In this document: in pieces, positions 6,578 through 64,000 of the stretch | Layout of the letters: each line of letters begins with the position of its first letter | How positions within the stretch are numbered: position 1 is the stretch's first letter | Virus record (IMG/VR): IMGVR_UViG_3300035687_000002 | Location: 62,001-126,000 of that record | Length of the DNA stretch: 64,000 bases | Reading direction: 5' to 3' (one strand) | Source of the DNA: a virus | Position numbers and translations under genes: made by a program | Notes under the pieces: generated by a model | What the model was told of the DNA's origin: nothing | The model's input: only the letters and a program-made list of their open reading frames with translations | The model's database searches: none

Positions 6578-6989
6578 CTGGATTGTCGATTTGTACTTTT
6601 GATGTAATATTTGTGTTTGTTGTATTAACAGTATCTACTTGAGCAGCATTTACAGTTTTAGCTGTAGTTGTATTTGTAGCTGTATTTACGTTCTCAACCT
6701 TCTCAATTGTGATGGCAGGAGCTGTAGGATTTGCTGCAAGACTGTCAATCTTCTGAGCTGCCATGTTCTGATAAGTAGTTAAACCTAATAAAGCTACTAT
6801 TAGACCAGCTTCAATACCAAGAACTAGTGATAAACCCTCAAGAGTTCTACCACCATCCCATTTAAAGATGGCATGAGATAAATTATGAATAAAATCAATA
6901 GAGAAGGCTATAGCCAAAGCAGACCTTACAGATATTTTACCATCTGCACCCTGCCATAAAGGTTCTATATATTTAAAAATTCTCTTCAT
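6567..6989 (-). CDS. Holin candidate, two-span membrane protein
   Basis: A 140-aa protein. The N-terminal 75 residues hold hydrophobic segments at about 25-43 and 55-75 (LVLGIEAGLIVALLGLTTY). The C-terminal half is a Thr/Asn/Val-rich tail (TATNTTTAKTVNAAQ) of low complexity. It overlaps the lysozyme gene downstream and shares a TAATG junction with the PAS gene upstream. That position, size and membrane topology make it the best holin candidate, but no specific holin family is recognised. Confidence 0.55.
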   Translation of the reverse strand: MKRIFKYIEPLWQGADGKISVRSALAIAFSIDFIHNLSHAIFKWDGGRTLEGLSLVLGIEAGLIVALLGLTTYQNMAAQKIDSLAANPTAPAITIEKVENVNTATNTTTAKTVNAAQVDTVNTTNTNITSKVQIDNPDGQ

Positions 6990-7633
6990 TATTCGTGTAT
7001 ATAAGGTTCTCCAATTTTCAGAAGCCTACCCAAACTATTTAAAACTTTACCATCTTTATCTTTATTGTGTATAACGATTGGCTGTACCATTTGATATTTA
7101 CCATCATTTCTTCTTAGTGAATGTACTAATATGAATTCGGAGCCATTTGCTACTGATTCTCTCCATAGTTTTACAACCATATCCCTGTCCCATGAAGCAA
7201 CTCTTCCTACCCATGAATTTCCCATTACCTCTAAAGGTGATGCACCAATCAAATCACAAAAAGCTATTGATACATAAGTAATTCTACCTTCACTATCAGA
7301 TTCCCATGAAGCAATATCCAAAATATCCCAAGTATTTCTGTTGGATACTTGTAAGCTATTTAATTTTAATATGACACTTTCTACTTGAGATAACATTTTT
7401 CTTTGGGTATCAAACATGCTACTACCACCATTCGGATAAAGCATGTGCTTAATAGATGCAATTTCCCTATTCTGAGAAGCTAACTCCGCAGTTAACTTGT
7501 CCCAGCGAGCATGTAGCGAAGCTCTGTATCTATTCCACCACTTCTTAGCAAAGGTTTTCCAAATAATGGTTCCCACCGCTATAACGCTACCTAATACTTC
7601 ACCTGTCGTCTTTAATGTATCTAATAGTGCCAT
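6989..7633 (-). CDS. Membrane-anchored PAS-domain protein in the lysis cassette
   Basis: A 214-aa protein. It has an N-terminal hydrophobic segment (about residues 10-27, GEVLGSVIAVGTIIWKTF), a basic, coiled-coil stretch (30-95), then a PAS-like fold (about 103-207). The PAS signs are ASWESDSEGRITYVS, FCDLIGASPLEVMGNSWVGRV, W-x-D and a closing HSLRRNDGKYQMVQPIVI strand pair. PAS domains bind small ligands or sense redox or light. A phage membrane PAS protein directly upstream of holin and lysozyme candidates could tie lysis timing to host state. No histidine kinase or cyclase domain follows. The PAS call is by pattern, and the lysis role is inference. Confidence 0.65.
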   Translation of the reverse strand: MALLDTLKTTGEVLGSVIAVGTIIWKTFAKKWWNRYRASLHARWDKLTAELASQNREIASIKHMLYPNGGSSMFDTQRKMLSQVESVILKLNSLQVSNRNTWDILDIASWESDSEGRITYVSIAFCDLIGASPLEVMGNSWVGRVASWDRDMVVKLWRESVANGSEFILVHSLRRNDGKYQMVQPIVIHNKDKDGKVLNSLGRLLKIGEPYIHE

Positions 7634-7680: not shown

Positions 7681-8625
7681 TTATTTTACTTCTTGTATAG
7701 CTTTGATATATTGTTCGGATGCTGAGTTAGGTTTGGTGATAATAACTTGACCAATTGGAGATTTATGAATCCAATCTCCTTTATAGAACAGTTCAGATTT
7801 ATCCTTGGTTGCCCCGGCATTATGATAAATTGGCTTCTTATTAAACTCTTCGATGCTTGAAGTTGCCCACGAGAAGTCCAGAAGTGGTGTTACGTTCGTT
7901 ATTTTTCCTCTACTCCACAAAGCCATGTTAAGAGCCCACATATCAGCACACCAGCTCTGAAAGCCCTTATTTTCACTCTCAAAGTACTTTTTATTGATAG
8001 AGTTAGGAGAATTAAACCAGAAAGCTTTCCTTATCTCTATACATTGTCTTTCTACATCGGACCAGAAGGCTGAATCGACTTCTTTGAGGATACATTGAGC
8101 TCCACCTGTCTTATTTGTGTAACTTTGAATGACTTCTATCGGAATATTTCCGATATTAGCCAATATTTTTACAGCTTCGTCATCAGGAATATTACCTTCC
8201 TTTTCTTTCCTCTTGAGGTAATTGTAATCAAGATAGCTTGAACAATCTGATTGCCAATTGATATTATCGTCCAAAAGTGACTCAAAATCAGGGAGATAAT
8301 TGAATATTATATCACTATCGTGGTAAAATATAGTCTCTCTCTTGAGAGACGGAATAGCTGCAAAATGCTTCTTTATAGTATGTGGTCGAAGCTGAGAGAT
8401 ATATAATCCAAGATTAACACCTTCATCTTTATAAAAAAAGAATCTTGTTTCCGGGTATTTATCCTGTAAAGCTCTCCATGCTTCCAGTTCTGCAGCCCTT
8501 CTTTCAGGGTACCAAACTAATATATGCATCTTTCCTGATACTCCGAATTTACGAAAATTTGTAATCTGTACTTCTACTTGCCAAAGGAAATAACTATCCA
8601 CTGGCTGACAACTTAAATATATCAT
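7681..8625 (-). CDS. Putative GT-A-type glycosyltransferase
   Basis: A 314-aa soluble protein with a Rossmann-like N-terminal half and a DxD-type motif, YHDSDIIF (about residue 100), which binds the metal/nucleotide-sugar in GT-A enzymes. The C-terminal half (AQCILKEVDSAFWSDVE, WCADMWALNMALW, PIYHNAG) resembles the acceptor-side region of viral and bacterial glycosyltransferases. No signal peptide is present. It lies 11 nt from a GT6-family gene, so the two probably act on one glycan. The CAZy family is not assigned. The acceptor could be the phage fibre, host surface or DNA. Confidence 0.65.
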   Translation of the reverse strand: MIYLSCQPVDSYFLWQVEVQITNFRKFGVSGKMHILVWYPERRAAELEAWRALQDKYPETRFFFYKDEGVNLGLYISQLRPHTIKKHFAAIPSLKRETIFYHDSDIIFNYLPDFESLLDDNINWQSDCSSYLDYNYLKRKEKEGNIPDDEAVKILANIGNIPIEVIQSYTNKTGGAQCILKEVDSAFWSDVERQCIEIRKAFWFNSPNSINKKYFESENKGFQSWCADMWALNMALWSRGKITNVTPLLDFSWATSSIEEFNKKPIYHNAGATKDKSELFYKGDWIHKSPIGQVIITKPNSASEQYIKAIQEVK

Positions 8626-8636
8626 GTTTGTTGGTT

Positions 8637-9398
8637 TTATACAAAGATAAGCTTGTTATGCTGTATGTCAAATAACTTATTAGTATTTTCACGCAAGCGT
8701 TTTCTGAACTCATCCGTATTTAATTTTGTATTACGGGTTTCTCCTATTCCTCCTTTGTCACTAACTAAAAATTCAAACTTATCACAAGGAACTGTTAAAG
8801 TGGGAGGATTATAATGAAAATATTGATTAATGTAACTCTCATCATTAACAACTGGCTCATAAGGTATCTTCTTATCTTCCAGTTGATTATTATATAATGT
8901 TTGGCAGAAATCTATCATTCTGTCTTTCTTACCTCCAAAGAATGCTCCATAATAGTAAGTACAAGGTAACTTGCTGAAGTAAGGAACATAGGCTTTGCTT
9001 TTCGGATTGTGGTCAAAACCTACTCCATCTTTAAGATAATTCCTGTTTCCATAATGTTCGCCACCCACCAAATCTCCAAGGAACCATTCATCAGTAAAAT
9101 CTTTAGTGATATTTGTATCTGCATCGAATTGGTACATATAATCTTCGTCCTTTAAATCTTTCTCTATTGATATTATATTAGCAAATTTAGAATTTGTTCC
9201 ATCTTGCCAACATTTATGAGTTCTATAGAAATACTTGAACCTTATATTATCTGAAAGGTATGGTTTTGGGTCTTCATCACTAAATATATAAAAAGTTATA
9301 GTATTATTACCCTTATAGTGATTCATGAACTTCTTCATAAACCTCAACCCAAGAATAAAGTAAGCATTAGTTGCTACCAAAGTTATAGCTATGTTCAT
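8637..9398 (-). CDS. Family 6 glycosyltransferase (ABO/alpha-1,3-GalT-like)
   Basis: A 253-aa enzyme with the main GT6 landmarks: FDAD at residues 91-94 (DxD metal site), YYYGAFFGG at 148-156 and NDESYINQYF at 185-194, corresponding to the donor and acceptor motifs of vertebrate ABO and alpha-1,3-galactosyltransferases. It lacks a membrane anchor. It retains DxD, which is known to be altered in many bacterial GT6 members but present in a cyanophage homologue. It would transfer Gal or GalNAc (or a related sugar) in alpha-1,3 linkage. The acceptor is unknown. Its 5' end overlaps the GIY-YIG gene by 32 nt. Confidence 0.85.
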   Translation of the reverse strand: MNIAITLVATNAYFILGLRFMKKFMNHYKGNNTITFYIFSDEDPKPYLSDNIRFKYFYRTHKCWQDGTNSKFANIISIEKDLKDEDYMYQFDADTNITKDFTDEWFLGDLVGGEHYGNRNYLKDGVGFDHNPKSKAYVPYFSKLPCTYYYGAFFGGKKDRMIDFCQTLYNNQLEDKKIPYEPVVNDESYINQYFHYNPPTLTVPCDKFEFLVSDKGGIGETRNTKLNTDEFRKRLRENTNKLFDIQHNKLIFV

Positions 9399-9936
9399 AT
9401 TGTAAATTGGTTTTATTTATTCTTGTACCATTTAAATAACTCTTTAGAGTACTATGTGTTACTCCAATTGAGTCAGCTGCAACCCTAGCAGAAGGATAAA
9501 TTTCCTTAGTAATTAGGTCAACAACTATCTTGGCTGATTTAGGATATTGTCCCTTCTTTGCGAGACCATTATTTATACAATGTTGTTTCGACTTAGGTTT
9601 TCCTAATGATGCAAGTCTCATTAACTCCTTAGTTCTAACATTATGTTTTCCTCCAGTCCCAGCTTCTCTGATATTCATCAAAATTATCCCACAATCCCTG
9701 TGTGTATCAATATACAATTGTTCATAACTATCTAGTATTGACTGTGTTATGTCCTCTGGAAGCTCATGAACTATCTCAAATATATGATTTGTATACCCAT
9801 GTTTTGCCAAAGAATGATATATGTAACGCTGTGCCTTATTACAATATTTGTAATCTATGAACCTCTTAAGAATATTCCAAGACTGTCCAATATAGGCTTT
9901 ACCAGAAGGGCTTGTTATTTTGTATATCCCTATCAT
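9367..9936 (-). CDS. GIY-YIG homing endonuclease
   Basis: A 189-aa protein. The catalytic domain shows GIYKI (3-7), GKAYIGQS (about 12-19), a downstream Arg (KRFIDY) and the metal-binding Glu in SYEQLYID (about 71-78). A NUMOD-type / DNA-binding tail follows, with a helix-turn-helix-like segment near the C-terminus (SARVAADSIGVTHSTLKSYLNG). It is inserted between the poly-Thr fibre gene (TAATG junction) and the GT6 gene (32-nt overlap). It has no promoter of its own, so it uses the late transcript. Confidence 0.9.
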   Translation of the reverse strand: MIGIYKITSPSGKAYIGQSWNILKRFIDYKYCNKAQRYIYHSLAKHGYTNHIFEIVHELPEDITQSILDSYEQLYIDTHRDCGIILMNIREAGTGGKHNVRTKELMRLASLGKPKSKQHCINNGLAKKGQYPKSAKIVVDLITKEIYPSARVAADSIGVTHSTLKSYLNGTRINKTNLQYEHSYNFGSN

Positions 9937-11615
9937 TATGTTAAATCAAACCATATTACACCTGTTGCACCTGCAGAGAATGTATTATGAACTCTTATAA
10001 AATGATTGGCTGGTGGTAAGTTAAACTGGTGATTCACTCCATTATAAGTAAGACCAGATGTTACACTTGTAATCTCAAAAGCTGCAATATTAGCTCCTTC
10101 AAGTAAAGTGAATAATCCATTTCCTCTCTGCCAAGCTCCACTACTTCCATTATATGTTAATAAATCTGTAGATACATTAATTGTCTTAGTTCCATCAGGT
10201 GTTCTTACGTCTCCAAATCCATCATCAATTGTAGCTTCATCATCATCTGTCCAATAATTTAACTCTATTTCAATAGCAGGTGAAGGTCCTAAATCACTGA
10301 TATTCAAGCAATTAGCTGGTATTAAAGAAGCCGGAGTATTTGGTGTATAGTAATCATTTGCTGAGAACCATACGATTGCACCTCTATCTCCAACTGTAGG
10401 ACTATTGGTGAAATATACTATATCTTCCTCTATAGGAACAGTAGTTATTGTAGTCGTAGATGTAGTTGTGGTCGTTGTGGTGGGTGCTGCCGTTGTTGTA
10501 GTTGTTGTAGATGTAGTAGTAGTTGTCGTTGTAAGAAGGTCGTTATTACAAGCATCTATATCAGCACAGGCAGCAAGGTCTGTGATAGTTAATCCAAATC
10601 CACTAATGAAACCATTTGGAGCACATCTGAGTACTCCTGTTCCGGCAGGAACAACCTCCTGTTGTATATCACCATCACAATCTGTGTAATTAAGAACCCT
10701 ATCAACAGCACCCGGATTTTGAACATTATAGCATCTACAAGGTGGTAATGTAGTAGTAGTTGTTGTAGAAGTAGTTATTTCATCACAGTCAGCAACAGCT
10801 ATTATTTCAACAGGACTCCTGTCTGGAATAACAACACTATCAGTACAAGCACAATCAATAATCGTTTCTTCATTAGGAAGAACCCAAACAAATGCAGGTA
10901 ATTGTGTAGCACAATCTATATAATGAATCTGCTGTGGTTCATCTAAATTATTTATTAATGTATACTTATTGCAACTCTCACATGATTCAGCGTTACAAGT
11001 GTCACTGATAAACTCAGCTATAATTTCATTATCATACTCAAAACTATCACTACATCCACAAATAGTTACACTTTCTCCTGCACCAAGAGTAATATTTGAT
11101 GGACTAAGGGTATCACAGTTTACATAATCAATATCATGGTCTTCATTATCCGGATTAACGAATCTAATTGTGTAACAATCAGGACATTCTTGTATTGTGG
11201 TAGTTGTTGTGGTAGAAGTTGTTGTGGTTGTTGTAGTTGGATTACAGCAGTTGCAGATTTTATCTATTACTGCTTGCCACTTCTCTTTTGAGGAGAAAGT
11301 ATTCCAATCCGAATCTATACATAAACCATCCGTTTCGTTTATCTCATCTGTAAATTGAGAGGCTATAAAACAACGCTTTACTGTAACTCCTCTTTCATCC
11401 TTGAAAGATATACATATCTTGTCATCAATTACTGTAAAGGTACTTAATGAGGTTACTGTCTCACACTCACTGATATCCTGACAGTCCGAAGTTGTTGCAC
11501 ATTCATCCTCAGTTTCTACCAAACTGCATATATTACATGCCAACTTCTCTGCCCACACTTGTGGGAGAGCATCTAATTCTTCTATTACCTGTTTTACGCA
11601 ATTATTATAAGTCAT
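9936..11615 (-). CDS. Cys-rich tail fibre with poly-threonine linkers
   Basis: A 559-aa protein. The N-terminal domain (1-130) resembles the whole upstream 133-aa protein. Then come three Cys-rich repeats of about 60 residues, each beginning near CxxC or CRC and separated by linkers of 6-20 Thr/Ser residues, and a C-terminal domain (about 400-559) ending in a jelly-roll-like VIWFDLT. The ATG at 11615 is preferred over an upstream in-frame Met because it overlaps the previous stop as TAATG. Thr runs make flexible, mucin-like spacers. A receptor-binding role is inferred. Two glycosyltransferase genes lie downstream. Confidence 0.75.
   Translation of the reverse strand: MTYNNCVKQVIEELDALPQVWAEKLACNICSLVETEDECATTSDCQDISECETVTSLSTFTVIDDKICISFKDERGVTVKRCFIASQFTDEINETDGLCIDSDWNTFSSKEKWQAVIDKICNCCNPTTTTTTTSTTTTTTIQECPDCYTIRFVNPDNEDHDIDYVNCDTLSPSNITLGAGESVTICGCSDSFEYDNEIIAEFISDTCNAESCESCNKYTLINNLDEPQQIHYIDCATQLPAFVWVLPNEETIIDCACTDSVVIPDRSPVEIIAVADCDEITTSTTTTTTLPPCRCYNVQNPGAVDRVLNYTDCDGDIQQEVVPAGTGVLRCAPNGFISGFGLTITDLAACADIDACNNDLLTTTTTTTSTTTTTTAAPTTTTTTTSTTTITTVPIEEDIVYFTNSPTVGDRGAIVWFSANDYYTPNTPASLIPANCLNISDLGPSPAIEIELNYWTDDDEATIDDGFGDVRTPDGTKTINVSTDLLTYNGSSGAWQRGNGLFTLLEGANIAAFEITSVTSGLTYNGVNHQFNLPPANHFIRVHNTFSAGATGVIWFDLT
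10441..10532 (-). repeat. Low-complexity Thr-codon tract
   Basis: A degenerate run of ACA/ACT/ACG codons on the minus strand encodes about 30 Thr/Ser residues with one AAP break. Shorter tracts of the same kind occur at about 10752-10780, 11197-11241, 11626-11650 and 63765-63826. The repeats could slip during replication and vary linker length or reading frame. Confidence 0.8.
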
Positions 11616-12016
11616 TATGGAGCTATAGTTGTTGTTGTGGTTGTAGTGTGCTGCTGACAAGTACATGCATAGTCAATAATTGCCTGTATCTGGTCTCTCC
11701 ATGATAACAAATCCCAATCTTCTTGGTCCATTATACATTTTGGGTCCAAATCTAATCCTACGTCATTCATATCAAAACAACGAGTAACTGCTGTACCATT
11801 CTCATCAGTGTATGTAATACATACCTCACTTCCATCCACAGTAAATGCGGATAAGGAGGTTAAAGTCTCACAATTCTTAACACTATTACAGTCAAGAGGA
11901 ACAGTAGGATTGATGAACTTACAGATAACCTTAGCCATCTGTTTTGACCACGCAGAAGGCAAATCACATAGATATTTCTGCATTAATTCCTCACAATTAT
12001 TACAAGTTATTTTCAT
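11615..12016 (-). CDS. Short fibre-associated protein, paralogue of the next gene's N-terminus
   Basis: A 133-aa protein. The order of conserved pieces (DCNSVKNCETLTSLSAFTV, VCITYTDENG, TRCF, W-x-LS, IQAIIDYACTC, then HTTTTTTT) matches the first 130 residues of the downstream fibre (DCQDISECETVTSLSTFTV, ICISFKDERG, KRCF, QAVIDKICNCC, TTTTTTT). It therefore looks like a tandem duplicate lacking the Cys-rich repeats. It ends in Thr7-IAP and overlaps the downstream start as TAATG. It is probably an adaptor or truncated fibre. Confidence 0.7.
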   Translation of the reverse strand: MKITCNNCEELMQKYLCDLPSAWSKQMAKVICKFINPTVPLDCNSVKNCETLTSLSAFTVDGSEVCITYTDENGTAVTRCFDMNDVGLDLDPKCIMDQEDWDLLSWRDQIQAIIDYACTCQQHTTTTTTTIAP

Positions 12017-12026
12017 ATATTATTAT

Positions 12027-12146
12027 TTATGGGGCAGCCGTAGTTGTTGTAGTTGTTGAATCACAGCTGCAATTTTCCATTACTGCTCCTACGTAAATAG
12101 GTTTTACAGGTACATCCTTCGGTTTTATTACTATTTCACAAGCCAT
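12027..12146 (-). CDS. 39-aa peptide ending in poly-Thr
   Basis: A small ORF (starts MACEIVIKPKDV, ends CDSTTTTTTAAP) whose ATG overlaps the stop of the preceding membrane-protein gene (TAATG). Its ending copies those of the neighbouring fibre proteins, with a CxC followed by Thr6 and AAP. It may be a linker remnant or a very short fibre component. It contains DST, which fits the D-(S/T)-x O-glycosylation motif known in Bacteroidota. Confidence 0.5.
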   Translation of the reverse strand: MACEIVIKPKDVPVKPIYVGAVMENCSCDSTTTTTTAAP

Positions 12147-12859: not shown

Positions 12860-14245
12860 TTAATTATATATTCTGATTTCTACCAAAGTATTAGTAAATA
12901 AGCCATCTGTACCTGTCAAAGAAAGTATTAAGGTAATAACGCTCTGTACTGTTGAATTAAATGTTACTACTGTAGTAGAAGTTACAGCAGCAGTATATTT
13001 TTGCAAACCATTGGCTTCTAATGATGTTATAACCACTGTTTTACCTGCTGTAAAAGTTGGTGTTGAAGCTGTTACTGTATATTGTCCAGCTAAACTTCTT
13101 GCCCAAGTAAATGTTGTAGCTCCAAAGTTAGCATCTTTTCTAACTGCTGAAGGTGCAGAACCACCAGATTGAGTAACTATAGCTTCATAGGCTGTATAAT
13201 TTGGTGTATAAAGCGTTGGAAATGTAGCTAACGATAAATCTCCTCTTATATATTGTCCTGTTGTACCAGTTGTAATGACATTCTGTTTAAGATCTAGAGC
13301 TGTCTGTGTGGCTGTAGAAACGGGTTTATTAGCATCTGTGGTATTATCTACATTACCTAATCCAATATCTCCTTTCGCTAAAGTCCAAGTACGATTAGCT
13401 GATAAATCTTGAGTAGTACCATTTATATTAATAGTTCTTGCATTGGTTACAGGGGTATATCCTAAAGCTGTTGTAACATTTCCACTAGTTATAGATGCTA
13501 AATACCCAGCATCATTTGTAAATGAAGATACTACTGTAGGTGCTCCAGAGAGCTTACTATAAGCTAAAGCTGTTATCCAAGCTGGATTACCATAGCTACC
13601 TGTTAATTGTGGATAACGAGCATCTCCTCTTGCATTAGTCCAGTAGAGATTAATATTCTCTGCTAAATCATTAGTAGTTTTAGCTGCAAATTTTGTATCA
13701 AATTGTGGGTCTGTCTCTGTATAGGATTGCAAGTATCTTGTATCACCTAATGTTTTTGTATAATAATTAGCTAAACTACTTGTATTATTATCTATGTAAT
13801 TAGAAGGATTGCTTGCATTGTATTTTAAGGCAATAGCAGCATTAATAGAAGCTATAGCTGCCACTGCTGAATCACTTTGCATTATTGGTCCATTAGGATA
13901 AAGCATTGTGATCATTGGAGTAGTCTTTTGATAGCCATTAGCATCTATCCAATTCATAGCTGCATTAGTTGTTGGCAAACCATCTGTATGAGGATGTGCA
14001 AATTGCTTCATCCATAAATTACCAGCCCACCATTCTAAAGTATTAGCTTTGTATACAGCAATAGTATCATTTGGTGCTGTTGTTTTACGTATGGCACTTG
14101 TAGCTGTTGGATTATTTACTATAATATTATAAGCTTGTCCAGATACTACCTCTGTAATTGCTGTAGCAGCTACAAATATTGGAGCTACTTTCTTTATTAT
14201 AAAAGAACTACAGAGAATACTTAAACCTAAAAGAATTTTTTTCAT
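12860..14245 (-). CDS. Tail fibre with signal-peptide-like N-terminus
   Basis: A 461-aa protein. Residues 1-37 resemble a signal peptide (MKKILLGLSILCSSF, then a hydrophobic stretch ending SGQA), unusual for a fibre assembled in the cytoplasm. The rest is fibre-like: YYTKTLGDTRYLQSYTETDP and YWTNARGDARYPQ motifs, then LGYTPV, AKGDIGLGNVDNT and ATQTALDLKQNV, which are shared by many phage fibre and side-tail-fibre shafts. The C-terminal 100 residues are strand-rich. It is 16 nt downstream of the next large fibre. Confidence 0.7.
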   Translation of the reverse strand: MKKILLGLSILCSSFIIKKVAPIFVAATAITEVVSGQAYNIIVNNPTATSAIRKTTAPNDTIAVYKANTLEWWAGNLWMKQFAHPHTDGLPTTNAAMNWIDANGYQKTTPMITMLYPNGPIMQSDSAVAAIASINAAIALKYNASNPSNYIDNNTSSLANYYTKTLGDTRYLQSYTETDPQFDTKFAAKTTNDLAENINLYWTNARGDARYPQLTGSYGNPAWITALAYSKLSGAPTVVSSFTNDAGYLASITSGNVTTALGYTPVTNARTININGTTQDLSANRTWTLAKGDIGLGNVDNTTDANKPVSTATQTALDLKQNVITTGTTGQYIRGDLSLATFPTLYTPNYTAYEAIVTQSGGSAPSAVRKDANFGATTFTWARSLAGQYTVTASTPTFTAGKTVVITSLEANGLQKYTAAVTSTTVVTFNSTVQSVITLILSLTGTDGLFTNTLVEIRIYN

Positions 14246-14261
14246 ATATTTATATTATTTT

Positions 14262-16502
14262 TTAATTGATAACTTCGTAATCAGTTCCGTTACTCTGAAC
14301 TTGTATTGTTGAATATGGATTTCCTTTAGTAGGAAGTAAAAATGTAGAAGCATAAACACCACTTGTAGGGTCTTCTATATTACCACCAGCAGTATCAATT
14401 GTTATAATTCCTATATCTGTAGAAGATTTACGTTTAATTACAAATATTTGTCCTATATTAGTTGTGGCATCAGGCAATGTTAAAGTTACTGTAGCGGCTG
14501 TATTATTAATACTTACAGTATAGTCATTACTTGTTATATTCCCACTTATAGAAGTAGTTCTATAAGAATGGAATGAAGCTCCTGAAGCACTCAATACCCC
14601 ACTTGCATCTGCTAATACTGCACGGGAACCTGTGCCGGATAAATTATTTACCTGTACTGTTGCCGAACTGTTAGAGAATACATATGTTTCAGTAGCATCG
14701 TCTATAAATAAAGAGGTATTATTATTATTCCCATCTAAATCCCCAATACCGTATTGATTTACGGTCAAATCAGCTAAAATAAATTTATTGCCATTGCCTG
14801 TTTCAATAACTTTAAAGCTATTTGCACCAGTGATATCAAATTTACCGCTACCCACCACATCTAAAGCTACTGATGGTGTAGATGTGTTTATGCCAAACTT
14901 ACCTGTGGTAGCCCCGTTAGTAAAAAAACCTTTATTATCCCCATCAACTATAGTTAATTGAGTTCCGTTAACAAAAGAACCACCATCTCCTATAGTTGCT
15001 GTACCAGCACTCGGATATACAGATAAAAAACCATCACCGTATGTTGAATTATATATTTTAGTATCCCCAAAAACAGTTAATGCGACATCAGGCGCATTAG
15101 TATTTATCCCAAACTTACCTGTGTGTGCTGTGTTGTCGTAGTAGGCTAAATTAGCGGTGTTGGTAAGTCTGATTTGATTCCCGTTTGTTTCAGCATCCAA
15201 ATCGCCTATGTATACATTATGATTATCACCTCTTGCAAAAAACGTTAAATTAACTCCATCTTGTCCTAATGCAAGATTAGTTCCATCGTATGTAAACTGG
15301 TCACTCCCTGTCAACAAATTACTTCCATCTCCATACCCTACATAAGTACTTGTAAGAGAGGGTATAGTACCTACCGTGGCTGAGCTGTACCACGCAAATG
15401 TCCCGTCATTTTGTATCTGTATGCTGGCCCACCGAGTTGATAGTGTTTTTGTAAATGATCCATCTATCCTCTGTGTTCCCGATCCATCAATGGTAACTAT
15501 ATTGGCGCTATCATCAATCTTTTTTATATTGTAAATACGGCCAAAACTGGTAGTTACGGTGGGTAGAGATATAACAACATCTCCTGCAGACGCATCTACC
15601 AATACAGCATAGTGGGATGCATCCAGCGTAGTATCTTCACCTACATACGTTACATTAGCGCCAAATGAGCCATTAGTTTGTAATATTGAAGTAGGATAAA
15701 TATTTACACCTAGTGAACCATTTATCCTTATTAGTTGATTAGTAATTGCTGAATTTTGTTGTATATATATTGGTGACTCAGTTTGGTCTCCATTATAATC
15801 AATTCTATCTAAAGAGTTTATAAATACTCTGTCTGATTCTGTGTTATTATATCTTCCAGCAAAAGAACCTATTCCTATATTATTATTAATAAGAGCTGTT
15901 GAGAAATGAGTATCTCCGAATCCAGATAATGCTCCTATAAAGGTATTATTATCTCCATTTATATTACTACCACACTCATCTCCAATTAAAGTATTAAAAC
16001 TACCATCAGTAATTCCTAAATTTGCTATACCACCAGCAAATTCACCTATTGCTACATTATCATTTCCTGTAGTTAGAGAACATAAAGCTAATCTACCAAA
16101 AGCAACGTTGTCATCACCATCAGTAATTGCCTCTAAAGCTCTATAGCCAAAAGAGGTATTTGGAGCAATAATTCCTTGATCAGAGGATATATAACCAGCT
16201 TTTTCATTATTTACTCTAATTGTAAAAGGTACATCATCCGTTGTGCCAATAAAATTAACATCTGGATCTATTCCTACATTACCCCCTAATAACCAAGCAT
16301 CACCACCACCAGAAGCTATTAATGCCCAATTACCACTTTCATCTTTATAGTAGATGTCGCCTGAGGAATTATCTATTCCTAAGACATGACAACAGCTTGA
16401 CGGACCGGATAAGGGTCCGTCACTATAAAGAATTTGTTTGTATTTTAGCTTAGATAGACGATTAATCTGTCTTTGTAAGCCAATTGGAGTTAAATCTTGC
16501 AT
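14262..16502 (-). CDS. Large tail fibre with YadA-like head repeats
   Basis: A 746-aa protein. Around residues 105-250 there are several GxxAxxxxxxGxxNVAxG-type units (NTSFGYRALEAITDGDDNVAFG, LTTGNDNVAIGEFAG, FNTLIGDECGSNINGDNNTFIG), as in trimeric YadA-type and Bacteroidota fibre heads. Two similar beta units follow, at about 290-375 and at the C-terminus, each with a LPxxTTxxGxxxxIKR/K core. The phrase GKFGINTxxPxVAL occurs twice. These indicate a trimeric receptor-binding fibre. A promoter lies upstream at 16554-16585, so it could also be expressed apart from the long late transcript. Confidence 0.8.
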   Translation of the reverse strand: MQDLTPIGLQRQINRLSKLKYKQILYSDGPLSGPSSCCHVLGIDNSSGDIYYKDESGNWALIASGGGDAWLLGGNVGIDPDVNFIGTTDDVPFTIRVNNEKAGYISSDQGIIAPNTSFGYRALEAITDGDDNVAFGRLALCSLTTGNDNVAIGEFAGGIANLGITDGSFNTLIGDECGSNINGDNNTFIGALSGFGDTHFSTALINNNIGIGSFAGRYNNTESDRVFINSLDRIDYNGDQTESPIYIQQNSAITNQLIRINGSLGVNIYPTSILQTNGSFGANVTYVGEDTTLDASHYAVLVDASAGDVVISLPTVTTSFGRIYNIKKIDDSANIVTIDGSGTQRIDGSFTKTLSTRWASIQIQNDGTFAWYSSATVGTIPSLTSTYVGYGDGSNLLTGSDQFTYDGTNLALGQDGVNLTFFARGDNHNVYIGDLDAETNGNQIRLTNTANLAYYDNTAHTGKFGINTNAPDVALTVFGDTKIYNSTYGDGFLSVYPSAGTATIGDGGSFVNGTQLTIVDGDNKGFFTNGATTGKFGINTSTPSVALDVVGSGKFDITGANSFKVIETGNGNKFILADLTVNQYGIGDLDGNNNNTSLFIDDATETYVFSNSSATVQVNNLSGTGSRAVLADASGVLSASGASFHSYRTTSISGNITSNDYTVSINNTAATVTLTLPDATTNIGQIFVIKRKSSTDIGIITIDTAGGNIEDPTSGVYASTFLLPTKGNPYSTIQVQSNGTDYEVIN

Positions 16503-54499: not shown

Positions 54500-54512
54500 C
54501 TGACTCAGGTAG

Positions 54513-54597
54513 CGGAGAGTATGAGATTCGAACTCATGGGCCGAATAAACGACCACAGTTTAGCAAACTGCTCCAATAGCCACTCTGGCAACTCTCC
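54513..54597 (-). tRNA. tRNA-Ser(GCT)
   Basis: Acceptor ends GGAGAGT / ACTCTCC, T loop TTCGAAT, anticodon loop TTGCTAA, long class II variable arm. Reads AGC/AGT. CCA is not encoded. Confidence 0.9.
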
Positions 54598-54602
54598 TTG
54601 TG

Positions 54603-54688
54603 CGGAAGGTAAGAGACTCGAACTCTTACGTGGCTCATCACCGACCTAGCTGTTTTCAAGACAGTGTACCTCTCCTTTGGGACCTTCC
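54603..54688 (-). tRNA. tRNA-Ser(TGA)
   Basis: Acceptor GGAAGGT / ACCTTCC, T arm AAGAG-TTCGAGT-CTCTT, anticodon loop CTTGAAA, class II variable arm. Reads UCN. CCA is not encoded. Confidence 0.9.
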
Positions 54689-54697
54689 TTATAATTG

Positions 54698-54782
54698 TGA
54701 CCAAGGTGGGATTCGAACCCACACGCCCATTTCTGAGCAAGGGATTTTAAGTCCCTCGTGTCTACCATTCCACCAAAGGGCC
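54698..54782 (-). tRNA. tRNA-Leu(TAA)
   Basis: D arm GTGGAATGGTAGACAC, anticodon loop CTTAAAA, long variable arm and a perfect T arm. The acceptor is poor: 5' GGCCCTT with 3' CTTGGTC leaves three mismatches at the base of the stem. Its 5' end lies about 5 nt from the T-run of the upstream terminator. Confidence 0.75.
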
Positions 54783-54784
54783 AA

Positions 54785-54820
54785 ATAAAAAAACCCTCCG
54801 AACATTGCTGCTGGAGGGTG
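54785..54820 (-). terminator. Intrinsic terminator upstream of tRNA-Leu
   Basis: Minus-strand hairpin ACCCTCC / GGAGGGT (54813-54819 and 54793-54799), then TTTTTTTATT. It ends the small-gene transcript from 55266, but the tRNA cluster starts within about 5 nt, so the tRNAs need read-through or a hidden promoter. Confidence 0.85.
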
Positions 54821-54838
54821 AAAAAAGAAATTTCTTCT

Positions 54839-54910
54839 TTACATAGTTCTTCCAGCTCGACTTTTAATCAAGAGTGATAAACTGGAATAATATGATGTTA
54901 TTGTTTTCAT
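54839..54910 (-). CDS. 23-aa peptide
   Basis: MKTITSYYSSLSLL start, ending KSRAGRTM. The ATG overlaps the stop of the 118-aa gene (TAATG), the junction used throughout this genome, so it may be translated. Only coupling supports it. Confidence 0.3.
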   Translation of the reverse strand: MKTITSYYSSLSLLIKSRAGRTM

Positions 54911-55266
54911 TATAATTTGTAACCTGTTGAATTTGTTATTGGATTACAGTTATTAGGACCTGTAGAACCTATTCTGCCTGATATCCTGCTATCTATTCTT
55001 TCTGCAGTTTCAGCTAATTCGTGTGATTGAATCGGAAAAACTCTAATATAGGTTGTCTTGTCACTTTCACCATTTATTATGTGGTGGTCAAAGGAAACTG
55101 ATAACCAAGAACTCTCTCCTCCCAAAGATTGAAAAAATGTCTTTAAAAGACCATCTCTTACATCATCACTGTCTATTAACTTAATAGCAATAACTGGCTC
55201 TAAACCTTTTCCTTCACCTCTATCGGTGAAATCTACTTTAATTTGACTTTTCATATGTTTATCCAT
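54910..55266 (-). CDS. 118-aa protein of unknown function
   Basis: An acidic N-terminal half (VDFTDRGEGKGLEPVIAIKLID) then FFQSLGGESSWLSVSF and an Asn-rich end (GPNNCNPITNSTGYKL). The ATG at 55254 is an alternative start (MKSQIKVDF). It is transcribed from the promoter at 55309-55340 and followed by a terminator. No family is recognised. It sits beside tRNA genes, but there is no sequence sign of a tRNA-linked role. Confidence 0.55.
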   Translation of the reverse strand: MDKHMKSQIKVDFTDRGEGKGLEPVIAIKLIDSDDVRDGLLKTFFQSLGGESSWLSVSFDHHIINGESDKTTYIRVFPIQSHELAETAERIDSRISGRIGSTGPNNCNPITNSTGYKL

Positions 55267-55308
55267 CAGTTTTTAGGTTGCCTACTTGGTCAAACCCTGA
55301 TTGGAATA

Positions 55309-55340
55309 CAAATATACGAAAGTATTTTGAAATAACCAAA
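55309..55340 (-). promoter_or_regulatory. Promoter of 118-aa gene
   Basis: Minus-strand TTTG (55337-55340), 20 nt, TATATTTG (55309-55316). Leader about 42 nt. Confidence 0.82.
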
Positions 55341-55346
55341 TTTATT

Positions 55347-56141
55347 TTAGAACTTGTTTCCACAGGTTGGACAGAACTTGTATTTACCACTTTTGTTCTT
55401 AGTCCCACATTCTGTACAATACTGAGATATCTCATTTACCTCTAGAGGTTTTTCAGAGAAAGGAAGTAACTTAATTTTCACTGTATTTGTACTCCAGCTA
55501 TTGAAGCTTCCTGAATAGTTAGTGAATGTCTGGTTAGAGACATCTCCTTGTTCAATTCTACCTGTTTCCTTTTGTGTAGGGATTGACTTCTTTACACGGT
55601 CAAATGCTGCATTATCTCCTACTCTTGAGGAGAACATAGACATGGTTGCAGCACCATCATGCATAAAATCCATGGAACGTATGTTTGAGTCCCTCTGATT
55701 CAGATAATTTACATTCTGAGCAGAAGAACCTACCATAGAATTCCAGTCAAAATAAACGGGTGCTGGTGGAACATGTTCATCATAGAAAGATACCTTTATC
55801 AGACCATTTTGCTGAATTGCAGCTGTGACTGATGGATTGTTGTCTACTACATAGGTTTCAAACTGGAACTTTCGAGGAGTATCAATATATCTCTCGATAT
55901 AAGCCCTCTGTCCCGGCTTTAAAACTATACCTGATGATGAAATTTGCTTACCATTAATGGAGATTTTGGCAAGTTTTGTGGATGTGGAAGGGTTGTTAAG
56001 CTCAATCTCAAACTCTTGTTTGTCAGAGAGATAAACACTGTTGTTAATGTTGGCTAGGTTTGTTGGATATGACCTTACCCTGTTTTTCTTTACGGCAATA
56101 AATGCCTCTCCCGTGGTGGGAGCTACTGTTGATGTGAACAT
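55347..56141 (-). CDS. Virion-type protein with C-terminal zinc ribbon
   Basis: A 264-aa protein. The N-terminal domain (1-105) carries SVYLSDKQEFEIELNNPS, AKISINGKQISSSGIVLKPGQR and YIERYIDTPRKFQFETY, a beta-domain phrase I recall from large phages and some giant viruses, where the protein is often uncharacterised. The centre is Asn/Ser-rich. The C-terminus is a zinc ribbon, YCTECGTKNKSGKYKFCPTCG (two CxxC). It has its own promoter and stands between tRNA genes and small membrane genes. Function is unknown. Confidence 0.65.
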   Translation of the reverse strand: MFTSTVAPTTGEAFIAVKKNRVRSYPTNLANINNSVYLSDKQEFEIELNNPSTSTKLAKISINGKQISSSGIVLKPGQRAYIERYIDTPRKFQFETYVVDNNPSVTAAIQQNGLIKVSFYDEHVPPAPVYFDWNSMVGSSAQNVNYLNQRDSNIRSMDFMHDGAATMSMFSSRVGDNAAFDRVKKSIPTQKETGRIEQGDVSNQTFTNYSGSFNSWSTNTVKIKLLPFSEKPLEVNEISQYCTECGTKNKSGKYKFCPTCGNKF

Positions 56142-56231
56142 ATATTTGCGTTACTTCTTTTAAGTACCAACATCTTCCCAGCATTATACTGGTCTCGGAC
56201 ATAATCCGGATGCAAATACAAAATAACAACT

Positions 56232-56263
56232 CAAAGGTACGGACTTTTTTGCTGAAAACCAAA
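56232..56263 (-). promoter_or_regulatory. Promoter of zinc-ribbon gene
   Basis: Minus-strand TTTG (56260-56263), 20 nt, TACCTTTG (56232-56239). It lies immediately downstream of the terminator at 56275-56304. Confidence 0.75.
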
Positions 56264-56274
56264 TTAATTTTTAA

Positions 56275-56304
56275 AATGAAAAAACCCCAGTGAAAACTGG
56301 GGTT
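56275..56304 (-). terminator. Terminator of the coiled-coil/membrane gene pair
   Basis: Minus strand AACCCCAG / CTGGGGTT (56297-56304 and 56283-56290), loop TTTTCA, then a T-run. A promoter starts 12 nt further on. Confidence 0.9.
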
Positions 56305-56309
56305 AAAAT

Positions 56310-56630
56310 TTAAGCTTCAGGAGCTTCAGTTGTCTCAGGGGTGTCTGGATTTAGGTCATCCAGTACCTGAACTTTTGCTTTAAGAGCATCAAAGGCTGCT
56401 TGAACTTCTGGTGTTACGTCATCGGCTGCATCAAAGGCTGCTTCAAGAGCATCTACTTTAGCCATGATTTCACCTGCAACCTTGTCAAGCTGAGTGCTTA
56501 ATGCTTCCAGCTGAGCTGCTAATTCTGTCTGTTCTGCCATGATTTTATCAAGTTTAGAGTTAATAATATCCAGTACCTTCATATCAGGAGATACATAGAT
56601 GTTTACAATTGTCTTGTTTATGAATGCCAT
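56310..56630 (-). CDS. 106-aa coiled-coil protein
   Basis: After a strand-forming start (MAFINKTIVNIYVSPD) there is an almost continuous heptad region (LDIINSKLDKIMAEQTELAAQLEALSTQLDKV, then MAKVDALEAAF). The end is acidic and Pro/Thr-rich. Length and layout resemble small phage trimerisation or virion-associated proteins. It lies 11 nt downstream of the membrane gene. Function is not assignable. Confidence 0.6.
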   Translation of the reverse strand: MAFINKTIVNIYVSPDMKVLDIINSKLDKIMAEQTELAAQLEALSTQLDKVAGEIMAKVDALEAAFDAADDVTPEVQAAFDALKAKVQVLDDLNPDTPETTEAPEA

Positions 56631-56641
56631 TGTACTATATT

Positions 56642-56827
56642 TTACACATGTACATTACTTAGAAATGATAAGATACCTAACCCTTTAAGTAACCAAAGGA
56701 CTAAAGCACCTATAACAACCCAATTAAGAATTGTCTTCACTTTACCATCCATAGGTATGAACCTGTTGATTAAGTATAAAGCAACTCCTGCTACTACCAG
56801 TACGACTAAAATTGTAAGTATTGACAT
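56642..56827 (-). CDS. 61-aa two-span membrane protein (Thivi_2564-like)
   Basis: Hydrophobic segment about 3-19, a linker NRFIPMDGKVKTILN, then a second segment about 36-55. This arrangement matches a short membrane family (Thivi_2564-like) that is widespread in phages and bacteria and has no known function. It is driven by the promoter at 56847-56878. Confidence 0.65.
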   Translation of the reverse strand: MSILTILVVLVVAGVALYLINRFIPMDGKVKTILNWVVIGALVLWLLKGLGILSFLSNVHV

Positions 56828-56846
56828 AATTAAATGTTTTATAAGT

Positions 56847-56878
56847 ACAATATAAAAAATATTTTAGAAAAAACCAAA
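56847..56878 (-). promoter_or_regulatory. Promoter of small membrane/coiled-coil genes
   Basis: Minus-strand TTTG (56875-56878), 20 nt, TATATTGT (56847-56854), the same weak -7 variant as at 16554. Confidence 0.65.
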
Positions 56879-56929
56879 TTTTTAATGTTGTATTTCTTCT
56901 ACAATAATGTGGTATTTTTTCTACAATTG

Positions 56930-57002
56930 TGGAGATGAAGGGCTTCGAACCCTCAACCTTCAGCTTGCAAAGCTGTTGCACGTCCACTTGTGCTTCACCC
57001 CC
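56930..57002 (-). tRNA. tRNA-Ala(TGC)
   Basis: Acceptor GGGGGTG / CATCTCC with G-T pairs, D stem GCAC / GTGC, anticodon loop TTTGCAA, T loop TTCGAAG. Confidence 0.88.
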
Positions 57003-57008
57003 ATGGAC

Positions 57009-57061
57009 GAAATAACTTAACCAATCACGCAATGGTGTGCTTCTATACCAGAGGTTATTTC
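57009..57061 (-). other. Hairpin-closed tRNA spacer
   Basis: GAAATAAC (57009-57016) pairs with GTTATTTC (57054-57061), closing a 53-nt spacer between tRNA-Ala and tRNA-Ile(GAT). An inner TGGT / ACCA pair is possible. No ORF is present. It may be a processing signal. Confidence 0.5.
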
Positions 57062-57064
57062 TTG

Positions 57065-57137
57065 TGCAGATACAAGGATTCGAGCCTTGGACCTACGTCG
57101 TATCAGGACGTTGCTCTACCAACTGAGCTATACCTGC
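57065..57137 (-). tRNA. tRNA-Ile(GAT)
   Basis: Acceptor GCAGGTA / TATCTGC, AGCTCAGTTGGTAGAGC D arm, anticodon stem ACGTC / GACGT with loop CTGATAC, perfect T arm. Confidence 0.94.
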
Positions 57138-57138
57138 A

Positions 57139-57441
57139 TTAATATTCAAAATAATCAATTCCTTCTTTAGGTCTTTCCTGCAATCTTCTCTGATGTGTAA
57201 CAATTCTGTGACAATTGGCACATCTAACTTCACATTTCTCTATTTCCCTCAAGAGAGAAACTAAAGAAGTTCCATTAGAGACCATCTTGGAGATATTTGC
57301 TTTCTTTTCTCCTTTCACATGATCGAAGTCCAATACAACAATGTTATTGTTCCCACAATCAGTGCAAGGATGCTTAGATAAATAGTCCCTAACAAAGTTT
57401 CTATTTCTTGTTCTTGTTCTTGCAAAATCTTTGCTTTTCAT
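57139..57441 (-). CDS. HNH endonuclease filling the gap between two tRNA-Ile genes
   Basis: A 100-aa protein with HPCTDCG, VVLDFDHVKG and CEVRCANCHRIVTHQRR, a full HNH with two CxxC pairs. The ORF can start at 57447, inside tRNA-Ile(TAT). The ATG at 57441 starts just after that tRNA and is preferred. It ends 2 nt before tRNA-Ile(GAT), so it fills the gap exactly and must be made from the tRNA precursor. Confidence 0.88.
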   Translation of the reverse strand: MKSKDFARTRTRNRNFVRDYLSKHPCTDCGNNNIVVLDFDHVKGEKKANISKMVSNGTSLVSLLREIEKCEVRCANCHRIVTHQRRLQERPKEGIDYFEY

Positions 57442-57442
57442 G

Positions 57443-57516
57443 TACATCTATTCAGATTCGAACTGAAAACCTTGACGATATAAGCGTCCTGCTCCGACCA
57501 GTTGAGCTATAGATGC
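57443..57516 (-). tRNA. tRNA-Ile(TAT)
   Basis: Acceptor GCATCTA / TAGATGT (G-T first pair), anticodon loop CTTATAT, perfect T arm TTCAG / CTGAA. Reads AUA, which would help a very AT-rich phage. Confidence 0.9.
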
Positions 57517-57521
57517 ATTTG

Positions 57522-57594
57522 CCGAGATAACGGGATTCGAACCCGTACCGCACGGATTGACAATCCGGCATTGTAACCATTCAACCATACCTCG
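57522..57594 (-). tRNA. tRNA-Asp(GTC)
   Basis: Acceptor CGAGGTA / TATCTCG (one G-T pair), anticodon loop TTGTCAA, T arm ACGGG / CCCGT. Confidence 0.92.
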
Positions 57595-57598
57595 TGGT

Positions 57599-57710
57599 AA
57601 TGTAGTAGTCATTGTCGAAGTGCCCATCACATCTCTGGCTAGTGTCAGATTGGAAATGCTGGAAAATCCTCTGACCTTCGAATAACTATATCAGCATTAG
57701 CTACTACATT
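57599..57710 (-). ncRNA. 112-nt structured RNA of unknown type in the tRNA array
   Basis: Three nested stems, all with full pairing: 57599-57608 with 57701-57710 (10 bp), 57615-57620 with 57676-57681 (6 bp), 57644-57649 with 57670-57675 (6 bp). The space exceeds a tRNA and no D, anticodon or T arm fits. No sizeable ORF is present. It starts 4 nt from tRNA-Asp and ends 1 nt before tRNA-Glu. Confidence 0.55.
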
Positions 57711-57711
57711 G

Positions 57712-57785
57712 TCATGCGTACGGGATTTGAACCCGTGAATATCACCTTGAAAGGATGACGACTTAGACCACTTGTCGAACGCATG
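57712..57785 (-). tRNA. tRNA-Glu(TTC)
   Basis: Acceptor CATGCGT / ACGCATG, anticodon stem TCATC / GGTGA with loop CTTTCAA, T loop TTCAAAT. Confidence 0.9.
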
Positions 57786-57790
57786 TTAAG

Positions 57791-57862
57791 AGCAGATAAA
57801 GAGAATCGAACTCTTATCCTCGACTTGGCAAGCCGATGCACTAACCGTTGTGCTACACCTGC
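57791..57862 (-). tRNA. tRNA-Gly(GCC)
   Basis: Acceptor GCAGGTG / TATCTGC with G-T pairs, anticodon stem TCGGC / GTCGA with loop TTGCCAA, perfect T arm. Confidence 0.92.
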
Positions 57863-57867
57863 AATTG

Positions 57868-57940
57868 TGCAGTAGACAGGACTCGAACCTGCCGCCCCTA
57901 ACTTGGAAGGATAGTGCTCTACCAGATGAGCTACTACTGC
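57868..57940 (-). tRNA. tRNA-Gly(TCC)
   Basis: Acceptor GCAGTAG / CTACTGC, D arm AGCTCATCTGGTAGAGC, anticodon loop CTTCCAA. Confidence 0.92.
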
Positions 57941-57945
57941 GTGGA

Positions 57946-57989
57946 GGCGAGGGGCAGTGTCCCCACTGTGGATTCCCTTTCAACTCGCC
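57946..57989 (-). other. Hairpin-closed spacer between DUF458 gene and tRNA-Gly
   Basis: GGCGAG (57946-57951) pairs with CTCGCC (57984-57989). An alternative inner GGGG / CCCC hairpin (57951-57954 with 57961-57964) exists. There is no T-run, so not a terminator. Confidence 0.45.
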
Positions 57990-57993
57990 ATGT

Positions 57994-58470
57994 TTATTTA
58001 TACATTTCTTTGTGTCTACATACGTGGTCAGCAGACTTTGTTGCTATTTTCTCTCCACCTTTGAAAGAAGCATTCAAACCCATTCCTTTTACCCACCCTC
58101 TCAAAGCTGACACTACACGAGTGGAAAGAGTCTTCTTAACATCAGCGTAATCGAACTCAAGTGCTTCAAAATTTATAGAAAGAATTTCTGCTCTTATCAA
58201 TTCTGCAACTTCAATGGTACGTGTACCTTCTGTGTACAGACGAGTGAACATATCCCAAATCCTTGGAACTGACTCTCTTGAGTAGATGAAGTGTGCTCCG
58301 TTTCTGCCATATCTGTATACTATACAAGTTGCATATTCACTGCATGGACCTTCGTCTTGACTGTCCGTTCCAATGTATATCTTGACATTCGGATTCTGCT
58401 GAATCTGCTCTAAAGTGTGTTCAACTATGTTGACTAACTCACCATCCTTTTTTCTGAAATATTTTGTCAT
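57994..58470 (-). CDS. DUF458 / YkuK-like RNase H-fold protein
   Basis: A 158-aa protein with VKIYIGTDSQ near residue 30, followed by an RNase H-like strand pattern (YATCIVYRYGRNGAHFIYSRESVP) and a late acidic segment (EALEFDYADV). This is the layout of the DUF458/YkuK family, whose members are predicted RNase H-like and functionally uncharacterised. It ends near tRNA-Gly and is encoded with an HNH gene (4-nt overlap). A role in RNA metabolism is only suggested by fold and place. Confidence 0.72.
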   Translation of the reverse strand: MTKYFRKKDGELVNIVEHTLEQIQQNPNVKIYIGTDSQDEGPCSEYATCIVYRYGRNGAHFIYSRESVPRIWDMFTRLYTEGTRTIEVAELIRAEILSINFEALEFDYADVKKTLSTRVVSALRGWVKGMGLNASFKGGEKIATKSADHVCRHKEMYK

Positions 58471-59057
58471 TCTCTATCTCTAAATTTTTTACCTTCTTCT
58501 AAGGCTTCTGTACAGGTTTTACAATTATGTCTCTTAATGTGACAATTAGCACACAAAAGTACACATTTATCTGCTTCCTTTTTTAGTTTTTCAATAGATA
58601 CTGACTTTCCACAAACATTAAACTCTTTTTCTTTAGGATTAAGATGATGAAAATGTAGAGCTTCTATACATTCATCATATCCACAATCTTCACACTTTCC
58701 ACCTTTATAATCAACAAGAATTGCTTTCTTACGAAGTCTCCATTTAAGAAAATAAATTGTTCTTCTTTTCTTTTGTTTTAATCTTTTTGGAACTATAAGA
58801 TATTTTCTAATTGTTTGAAGTGAAAAGCCTGTTATTTCTCTTATCTCATTAAAAGCTTTTCCTTCAATATAAAGTTCATTAATTTTTCCCTTTTGTTTTA
58901 TAGTTAAAGGTATATTGTTTCCTTTTCTTTTAGGTGAATTTCTTTGAGATTTATAGTAAGATATAACAGATCTTACACAACCTAAGATTCTTGCAACTTC
59001 TACTGGTTTCTTCCCTTCATCTAAAAGTTTATATACTTCATCCCTATCTAATTTCAT
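58467..59057 (-). CDS. HNH endonuclease with helix-turn-helix domains
   Basis: A 196-aa protein. Two N-terminal HTH-like segments (KPVEVARILGCVRSVISYY; NEIREITGFSLQTIRKYL) suggest sequence recognition. The C-terminal HNH domain is CEDCGYDE, ALHFHHLNPKEKEF, CVLLCANCHIKRH. It overlaps the DUF458 gene by 4 nt and has its own promoter at 59075-59106, so it may supply that downstream gene too. Confidence 0.88.
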   Translation of the reverse strand: MKLDRDEVYKLLDEGKKPVEVARILGCVRSVISYYKSQRNSPKRKGNNIPLTIKQKGKINELYIEGKAFNEIREITGFSLQTIRKYLIVPKRLKQKKRRTIYFLKWRLRKKAILVDYKGGKCEDCGYDECIEALHFHHLNPKEKEFNVCGKSVSIEKLKKEADKCVLLCANCHIKRHNCKTCTEALEEGKKFRDRE

Positions 59058-63756: not shown

Positions 63757-64000
63757 TTAAGGTATAGTTGTTGTTGTCGTGGTTGCAAAAGGACTTAAGT
63801 CAAATGTTGTGGTAGTTGTAGTTGATACATCGGGACCTCTACTTGTTCCTCCACTTCCACTTGTTGGTATCTCTGATGTTACTGGATAATCTGCACAATC
63901 CATCAACTGAGCGTAATATCTAGTAGGAGTTCCAGTATTACCTGAATTTCCCTGTATCTCTACATATACAGTATTTCCAATTTCCTCTATGGCTTTAAAC
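63757..64000 (-). CDS. C-terminal end of a poly-Thr fibre protein (partial)
   Basis: Eighty codons are visible before the TAA. The protein ends in two Thr tracts: SRGPDVSTTTTTTFDLSPF, then ATTTTTTIP, preceded by YYAQLMDCADYP and Gly/Ser-rich sequence. The rest is beyond the window edge. The Thr6-x-P ending matches the short fibre-associated peptides near 12 kb, so the two sets are related. Confidence 0.72.
   Translation of the reverse strand, partial: FKAIEEIGNTVYVEIQGNSGNTGTPTRYYAQLMDCADYPVTSEIPTSGSGGTSRGPDVSTTTTTTFDLSPFATTTTTTIP

Follow-up and report, generated by a model that had tools for sequence, protein, structure and literature searches.

In the window analysed here, a stretch of 64,000 nucleotides (positions 62,001 to 126,000) within the 146.7-kb virus record IMGVR_UViG_3300035687_000002, a gene of the protein family phrog_4417 lies in an island with open reading frames (ORFs) that carry tracts of threonine (Thr). 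We suggest, at a probability of roughly 0.8, that the phrog_4417 enzyme glycosylates the Thr tracts of virion proteins; to judge from the sequence patterns, the acceptor would be poly-Thr and the sugar O-linked. This self-glycosylation reading is strongly supported by recurrence in many unrelated phages, by controls and by natural gain/loss pairs, and the genetic data link a phage glycosyltransferase (GT) to candidate acceptor segments of virion proteins. The island would then be a virion self-glycosylation cassette, in which the Thr tracts, as tails at the C-terminus or linkers between domains, would serve as acceptors, and the phrog_4417 enzyme would move a sugar from a host nucleotide-sugar onto the threonines in the cytoplasm, prior to assembly or in the course of it. 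A second enzyme, of family GT6, would probably add a second sugar in the window phage. Candidate benefits of such a Thr glycan are shielding from proteases, stiff extended linkers, changed adsorption and hidden epitopes.

The linkage between enzyme and tract was measured in 80 viral loci collected by a search for the enzyme only, with 2,140 random gene-sized slots in Ala8 loci as controls; Ala8 and Thr8 loci were sampled solely for eight alanine or eight Thr codons. A same-strand Thr tract was present within 500 bp of phrog_4417 in 69/80 viral loci and within 1 kb in 76/80, compared to 19/2,140 and 27/2,140 control slots, respectively. The density of tracts was 0.93 per kb within 1.5 kb of phrog_4417 and 0.018 per kb beyond 4 kb. 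When sequences were clustered at 70% identity, the stand-alone enzyme had a tract within 2 kb in 28/32 clusters (control slots, 45/2,140), in line with a general co-occurrence of this GT and Thr tracts, a check suggested in a preliminary description of the window; among fused forms of the enzyme, a nearby tract was seen in 1/26 clusters (p = 6e-11 for the two forms). Sampling in the converse direction recovered phrog_4417 in 12 of 120 random Thr8 loci and none of 120 Ala8 loci (p = 3.7e-4), with the tract within about 400 bp in 10 of the 12. Whole-record searches gave 3/22 for Thr8 and 0/22 for Ala8.

Isolated phages allowed the tract-bearing proteins to be named. phrog_4417 was present in 74 isolated-phage records, mainly of Lactobacillus, Enterococcus, Staphylococcus and Lactococcus, with one of Chryseobacterium and one of Arcanobacterium, and in most of the phages inspected its gene was next to that of the capsid or of the major tail protein. 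In Chryseobacterium phage MA9V-3, the isolate that comes nearest to the window case, the enzyme adjoins a protein with a Thr linker. In the enzyme-bearing phages of Bacillota and Actinomycetota, C-terminal Thr tails were found on the major tail protein and often on the major capsid protein; in phiFL1A, the capsid protein ends in TTTTTKPTTTTTKPTTTTTTTQG and the tail protein in TTTTTSTTTTTTSSTTTTTTTQASSK. Among matched homologues, the major tail protein carried a Thr tail in 7/7 phages with the enzyme (CHPC836, phiFL1A, R3.3, iLp84, VPE25, SA2 and TPWB06) and in 0/9 phages without it (CHPC1175, D1811, Javan648, Geobacillus NIIg9.7, Javan47, 315.6, Javan311, Bassarid and phiJL-1), with a p value of 8.7e-5 that is only a guide because this set is small and partly related. 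The capsid protein was also Thr-tailed in 4 of the 7 enzyme-bearing phages. The cleanest pair was that of the Lactococcus phages CHPC836 and CHPC1175, which are about 95% identical on both flanks. phrog_4417 lies directly behind the capsid gene in CHPC836 and is absent there in CHPC1175, the complete genome of which contains no phrog_4417. The capsid protein ends in VGNFTGAPTTTTTTQATTTTTSHA in CHPC836 versus VGNFTAGK in CHPC1175, and the major tail protein, 2.5 kb further, in NGYASTTTTTTTHA versus NGYAGVGV. Therefore, two separate proteins gained or lost their tails together with the enzyme.

It could be argued that both enzymes of the island modify the surface polysaccharide of the host, as happens in serotype conversion or superinfection exclusion, that their position in a variable fibre locus is fortuitous, and that the Thr tracts are nothing more than flexible linkers. 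Enzymes of this kind are indeed found in phages, phrog_4417 is missing beside many Thr tracts, and the GT6 of Prochlorococcus phage P-SSM2 belongs to a large cluster of glycosyltransferases and epimerases instead of accompanying Thr tracts. However, modification of the host leaves unexplained both the linkage in 28/32 clusters and the Thr tails themselves, which are on capsid and tail proteins where the enzyme is present and not on the enzyme-free homologues. We consider this explanation improbable for the two enzymes together; a host-polysaccharide role for GT6 alone is quite possible.

The window protein at 8625-7681 is a full-length match to phrog_4417 (E = 2.7e-53, residues 1-314), a family listed as of unknown function in PHROG. 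It matched no Pfam family, and a search of solved structures by sequence, profile included, returned nothing, so that the fold comes from Foldseek alone. An AlphaFold2 model made with 37 aligned relatives had a predicted local distance difference test (pLDDT) score of 94.5 and a predicted template modelling (pTM) score of 0.91, and its Foldseek matches were GT-A enzymes of families GT6, GT8, GT24 and others (E from 4e-7 to 8e-5, probability about 1.00). The DXD pair D103/D105 was invariant in sets of 37 and 16 sequences, down to about 27% identity and across phyla. The phrog_4417 protein is thus confidently predicted to be a GT-A fold glycosyltransferase with a DXD motif. It has only the fold in common with GT6 and is not a member of that family.

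The island and the tracts within it are organized in the window as follows, with one further Thr-tailed protein at the window end:

12027..12146, minus strand: 39-residue peptide MACEIVIKPKDVPVKPIYVGAVMENCSCDSTTTTTTAAP, with the C-terminal end TTTTTTAAP
12059-12039, minus strand: tract STTTTTT in the 39-residue peptide
11615..12016, minus strand: 133-residue protein with a conserved, cysteine-containing N-terminal module (CETLTSLS) and the C-terminal end TTTTTTTIAP
11647-11627, minus strand: tract TTTTTTT in the 133-residue protein
9936..11615, minus strand: 559-residue protein (start ATG at 11615), with the N-terminal module followed by Thr linkers between variable domains
11237-11196, minus strand: tract TTTTTTTSTTTTTT in the 559-residue protein
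10775-10749, minus strand: tract TTSTTTTTT in the 559-residue protein
10532-10491, minus strand: second copy of tract TTTTTTTSTTTTTT in the 559-residue protein
10481-10449, minus strand: tract TTTTTTTSTTT in the 559-residue protein, joined to the preceding tract by AAP
9367..9936, minus strand: GIY-YIG homing-endonuclease-like ORF that separates the tract genes from GT6
8637..9398, minus strand: GT6 family glycosyltransferase, 253 residues, with D92-A-D94 (DXD) and a conserved DES motif
7681..8625, minus strand: phrog_4417 GT-A enzyme with the invariant D103 and D105
63757..64000, minus strand: part of a 256-residue protein cut by the window end (L428:2758-3528), with the tail STTTTTTFDLSPFATTTTTTIP

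The three tract-bearing ORFs are adjacent (12146-9936); the smallest was not in the ORF list because of a 60-residue minimum. They do stand beside GT6 and the GT-A enzyme, as the preliminary description held, but the uninterrupted tracts measure 7-14 residues instead of 6-20, and the GIY-YIG ORF interrupts the direct adjacency claimed there. The nearest relative (L002) lacks this ORF, and 95 bp separate the tract gene from the start of GT6 there; the ORF is therefore probably a passenger. The N-terminal module is common to the 133- and 559-residue proteins and has homologues in the relatives L002-L006, and tail-fibre/spike-like genes at 12860-16502 adjoin the tract ORFs. It appears that the tract proteins belong to the tail-fibre or virion set and would be present in the particle. 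The 256-residue protein is a further candidate substrate in the same phage; outside the island, the record encodes two Thr-tailed proteins, at 125.8 and 129.5 kb. The 146.7-kb record has 16 ACN6 matches, located in three places, and every one is on the coding strand; the Thr tracts are thus not a matter of chance. No similar phage was matched in the isolated-phage collection, either by DNA or by two large proteins.

Several results weigh against glycosylation of the tracts by phrog_4417. The enzyme was not nearby in 108/120 Thr8 loci, nor was it in 19/22 of the longer records; the enzyme cannot be assumed from a tract by itself, and the link is one-sided. Two viral loci, L021 and L036, keep phrog_4417 without a nearby Thr tract. 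In the window, the tract proteins matched no virion family in Pfam and PHROG profile searches, and their shared N-terminal module folded poorly (pLDDT 51.6), which made the model unusable. The Foldseek TM-scores of the enzyme to solved enzymes were only 0.4-0.5, about 0.45-0.5 for most, and therefore donor and stereochemistry could not be deduced from the structures.

The loci L021 and L036 keep the usual neighbour genes, and one neighbour ORF in L036, with the end YECCNP, has its stop at the usual start of the tract. In the locus L094 (record G001, 76.8 kb), three ORFs end in pure poly-Thr near a capsid gene, and no phrog_4417 was found anywhere in this record; another enzyme may serve these ORFs. 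Beside Thr tracts without phrog_4417, a single GT25 match was found among the families listed for 113 neighbours, so that no general replacement for phrog_4417 emerged from them.

The composition of the tracts was strongly in favour of Thr, with a Thr to serine ratio of 2818:342. General O-glycosylation in Bacteroidota is periplasmic and depends on the motif D-(S/T)-x, in which the glycan is O-linked to serine or Thr. The preliminary description had invoked this motif, which has to be abandoned: aspartate precedes only 11/363 tracts, and the residue ahead is proline in 176/346. The synonymous Thr codons are mixed. Identical neighbouring codons numbered 14 in the window tracts versus 16.9 expected, and in 346 tracts of related loci their frequency was 0.304 observed versus 0.315 expected. 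This scrambling implies selection on the amino acids and rules out DNA slippage as the origin of the tracts. It also bears on a second explanation, that the tracts are junctions for module shuffling, whose ACN repeats promote recombination of fibre genes with the enzyme gene as cargo. The tracts do lie exactly where the conserved N-terminal module meets a variable C-terminal domain or the stop, and a homing endonuclease is present within the island. However, the scrambled codons leave no repeat signature, and the Bacillota tails end single-module major proteins that have no shuffled domain behind them. Shuffling may hold as well, yet the dependence on the enzyme would stay unexplained, and we consider it very improbable as the whole explanation.

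The ends of the tails fit a tag better than a random run of Thr. At least two Thr-bearing ORFs were present in 31/35 Bacillota genome loci. The last two residues were shared by different virion proteins of one phage in 24/55 pairs, compared to 5.8 expected and a maximum of 14 in 2,000 shuffles, which serve only as a guide because some loci are related to each other. The aligned Thr codons of same-phage proteins agreed at only 59/146 positions. The tag end is therefore phage-specific and not simply copied DNA. We lean towards the view that phages of at least three bacterial phyla use a portable tag, made of about seven Thr and a phage-specific end (such as SHA, SA, AAV or GAGA), which subjects any virion protein that gains it to glycosylation by the phrog_4417 of its own phage, that the glycan differs between phages through accessory GTs and methyltransferases, and that a separate fusion of the enzyme domain with a galactosyltransferase in lanthipeptide clusters of Bacteroidota yields peptides that bear sugars.

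The end of the capsid gene of Enterococcus phage VPE25 coincides with the start of a long Thr-rich stretch (KVTPQPTTTTTTTVKP) in another reading frame (L084:4740-4890). In SA2 and TPWB06, the Thr tail of the major tail gene overlaps a second Thr-rich frame (L089:4667-4930 and L090:4720-4926, respectively). Through a ribosomal frameshift, some of the subunits in these three phages may receive longer Thr tails.

The 253-residue window protein is a member of GT6, the family of the ABO transferases, alpha-1,3-galactosyltransferase and Bacteroides ovatus GT6a. It matched Pfam PF03414 at 6.7e-16 (58.4 bits against a curated cut-off of 25), the human ABO transferase at 2e-13 and BoGT6 at 4e-12; in the alignment, NDES stands opposite HDES and DAD opposite DVD, so that the catalytic glutamate and the DXD motif are both conserved. 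The window enzyme has DXD like vertebrate GT6, unlike the NXN of the Bacteroides ovatus enzyme, which is metal-independent (PMC3961637), and a metal requirement is therefore expected.

For the part of the preliminary proposal that concerned self-glycosylation by phage enzymes, recurrence, controls and gain/loss pairs sustain the role of the GT-A enzyme, and the case for GT6 is weaker. GT6 was found in 3/30 phrog_4417 records, all of them closest relatives and with GT6 within about 5 kb of the island, and thus looks like an optional extender. In a set of 96 proteins encoded around phrog_4417 in viral loci, matches to GT families numbered 17, and methyltransferases were present as well; the GT families were GT2 (seven), GT6, GT9, GT11, GT25, Galactosyl_T and Gly_transf_sug, and one protein may match several of them. 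No GT2 was found in the record of the window phage itself. We infer that phrog_4417 initiates and that a changing set of GTs extends, the order and the sugars being part of this inference. Whether GT6 acts on the same glycan as phrog_4417 is about an even bet. It may instead be unrelated, with phrog_4417 glycosylating the tracts and GT6 acting on another acceptor such as a host glycan or lipopolysaccharide. Its rarity and the status of phrog_4417 as the sole obvious GT beside the tails in Bacillota phages are in line with that, but in the closest relatives GT6 is never farther than about 5 kb from the island, and extra GTs are frequent around phrog_4417; we regard an unrelated GT6 as possible but less likely than not.

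Virion glycosylation by phage enzymes is known from mycobacteriophages, the GTs of which are thought to decorate capsid and tail-tube proteins, with glycans at the C-termini (Freeman et al. 2023, via PMC12619734 and PMC13313380). The system proposed here would resemble this one in its phage-encoded GTs and in the use of C-terminal ends of capsid and tail proteins, described for mycobacteriophages in PMC12619734. On poly-Thr tails in phages, nothing relevant was found in a partial coverage of the literature. Phage Che8, reportedly one of those in the study by Freeman and colleagues in 2023, has no phrog_4417 and no Thr tail; the capsid protein ends in FNKTGS and the tail protein in QYSDGS. Enzyme family and acceptor thus differ from those of the window, and identity with the mycobacteriophage system is ruled out for Che8.

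Mucins offer another comparison. Their proline, threonine and serine (PTS) domains contain dense Thr/serine runs, often after proline, and the polypeptide N-acetylgalactosamine (GalNAc) transferase is a dedicated initiating GT-A enzyme. The window-type tags are alike in their dense Thr/serine runs and in a proposed dedicated GT-A enzyme. However, the phage tags are short and almost pure Thr, would be glycosylated in the cytoplasm and have no sequence relationship to the mucin system, and the term mucin-like in the preliminary description is apt for composition and nothing beyond it.

The phrog_4417 domain also occurs in genomes of Bacteroidota (Chitinophaga, Sphingobacterium, Pedobacter and others), mostly within proteins of 480-830 residues. 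A C-terminal galactosyltransferase domain (PF02709) was recognisable in 2/3 fused proteins tested. The fused genes adjoin LanC-like and lantibiotic dehydratase genes and GG-leader peptides, and no Thr tract was found beside these homologues in the lanthipeptide clusters. The family is thus found next to peptide substrates in a second, independent setting, and glycosylated lanthipeptides are a possible product. Lanthipeptide-like clusters with the fused enzyme were seen in L347, L350, L356, L358, L362 and L365.

Our reading proposes a function, together with a recognisable acceptor, for a widespread phage family of unknown function, and would make glycosylated phages and their proteins predictable from sequence, including those of Lactobacillus, Lactococcus, Enterococcus and Staphylococcus. 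Virion glycosylation in phages, reported mainly from mycobacteriophages in the literature covered, becomes testable with two nearly identical dairy phages. If true, the reading would also give protein chemistry a compact Thr-glycosylation tag that can be encoded genetically, and it would point the way to glycosylated lanthipeptides.

Two other features of the window may be mentioned. A PAS-fold domain protein, unusual in a phage, is encoded at 6989-7633, between lysis-type genes and the glycosyltransferase island, and 26 transfer RNA genes lie in one stretch at 54512-61798.

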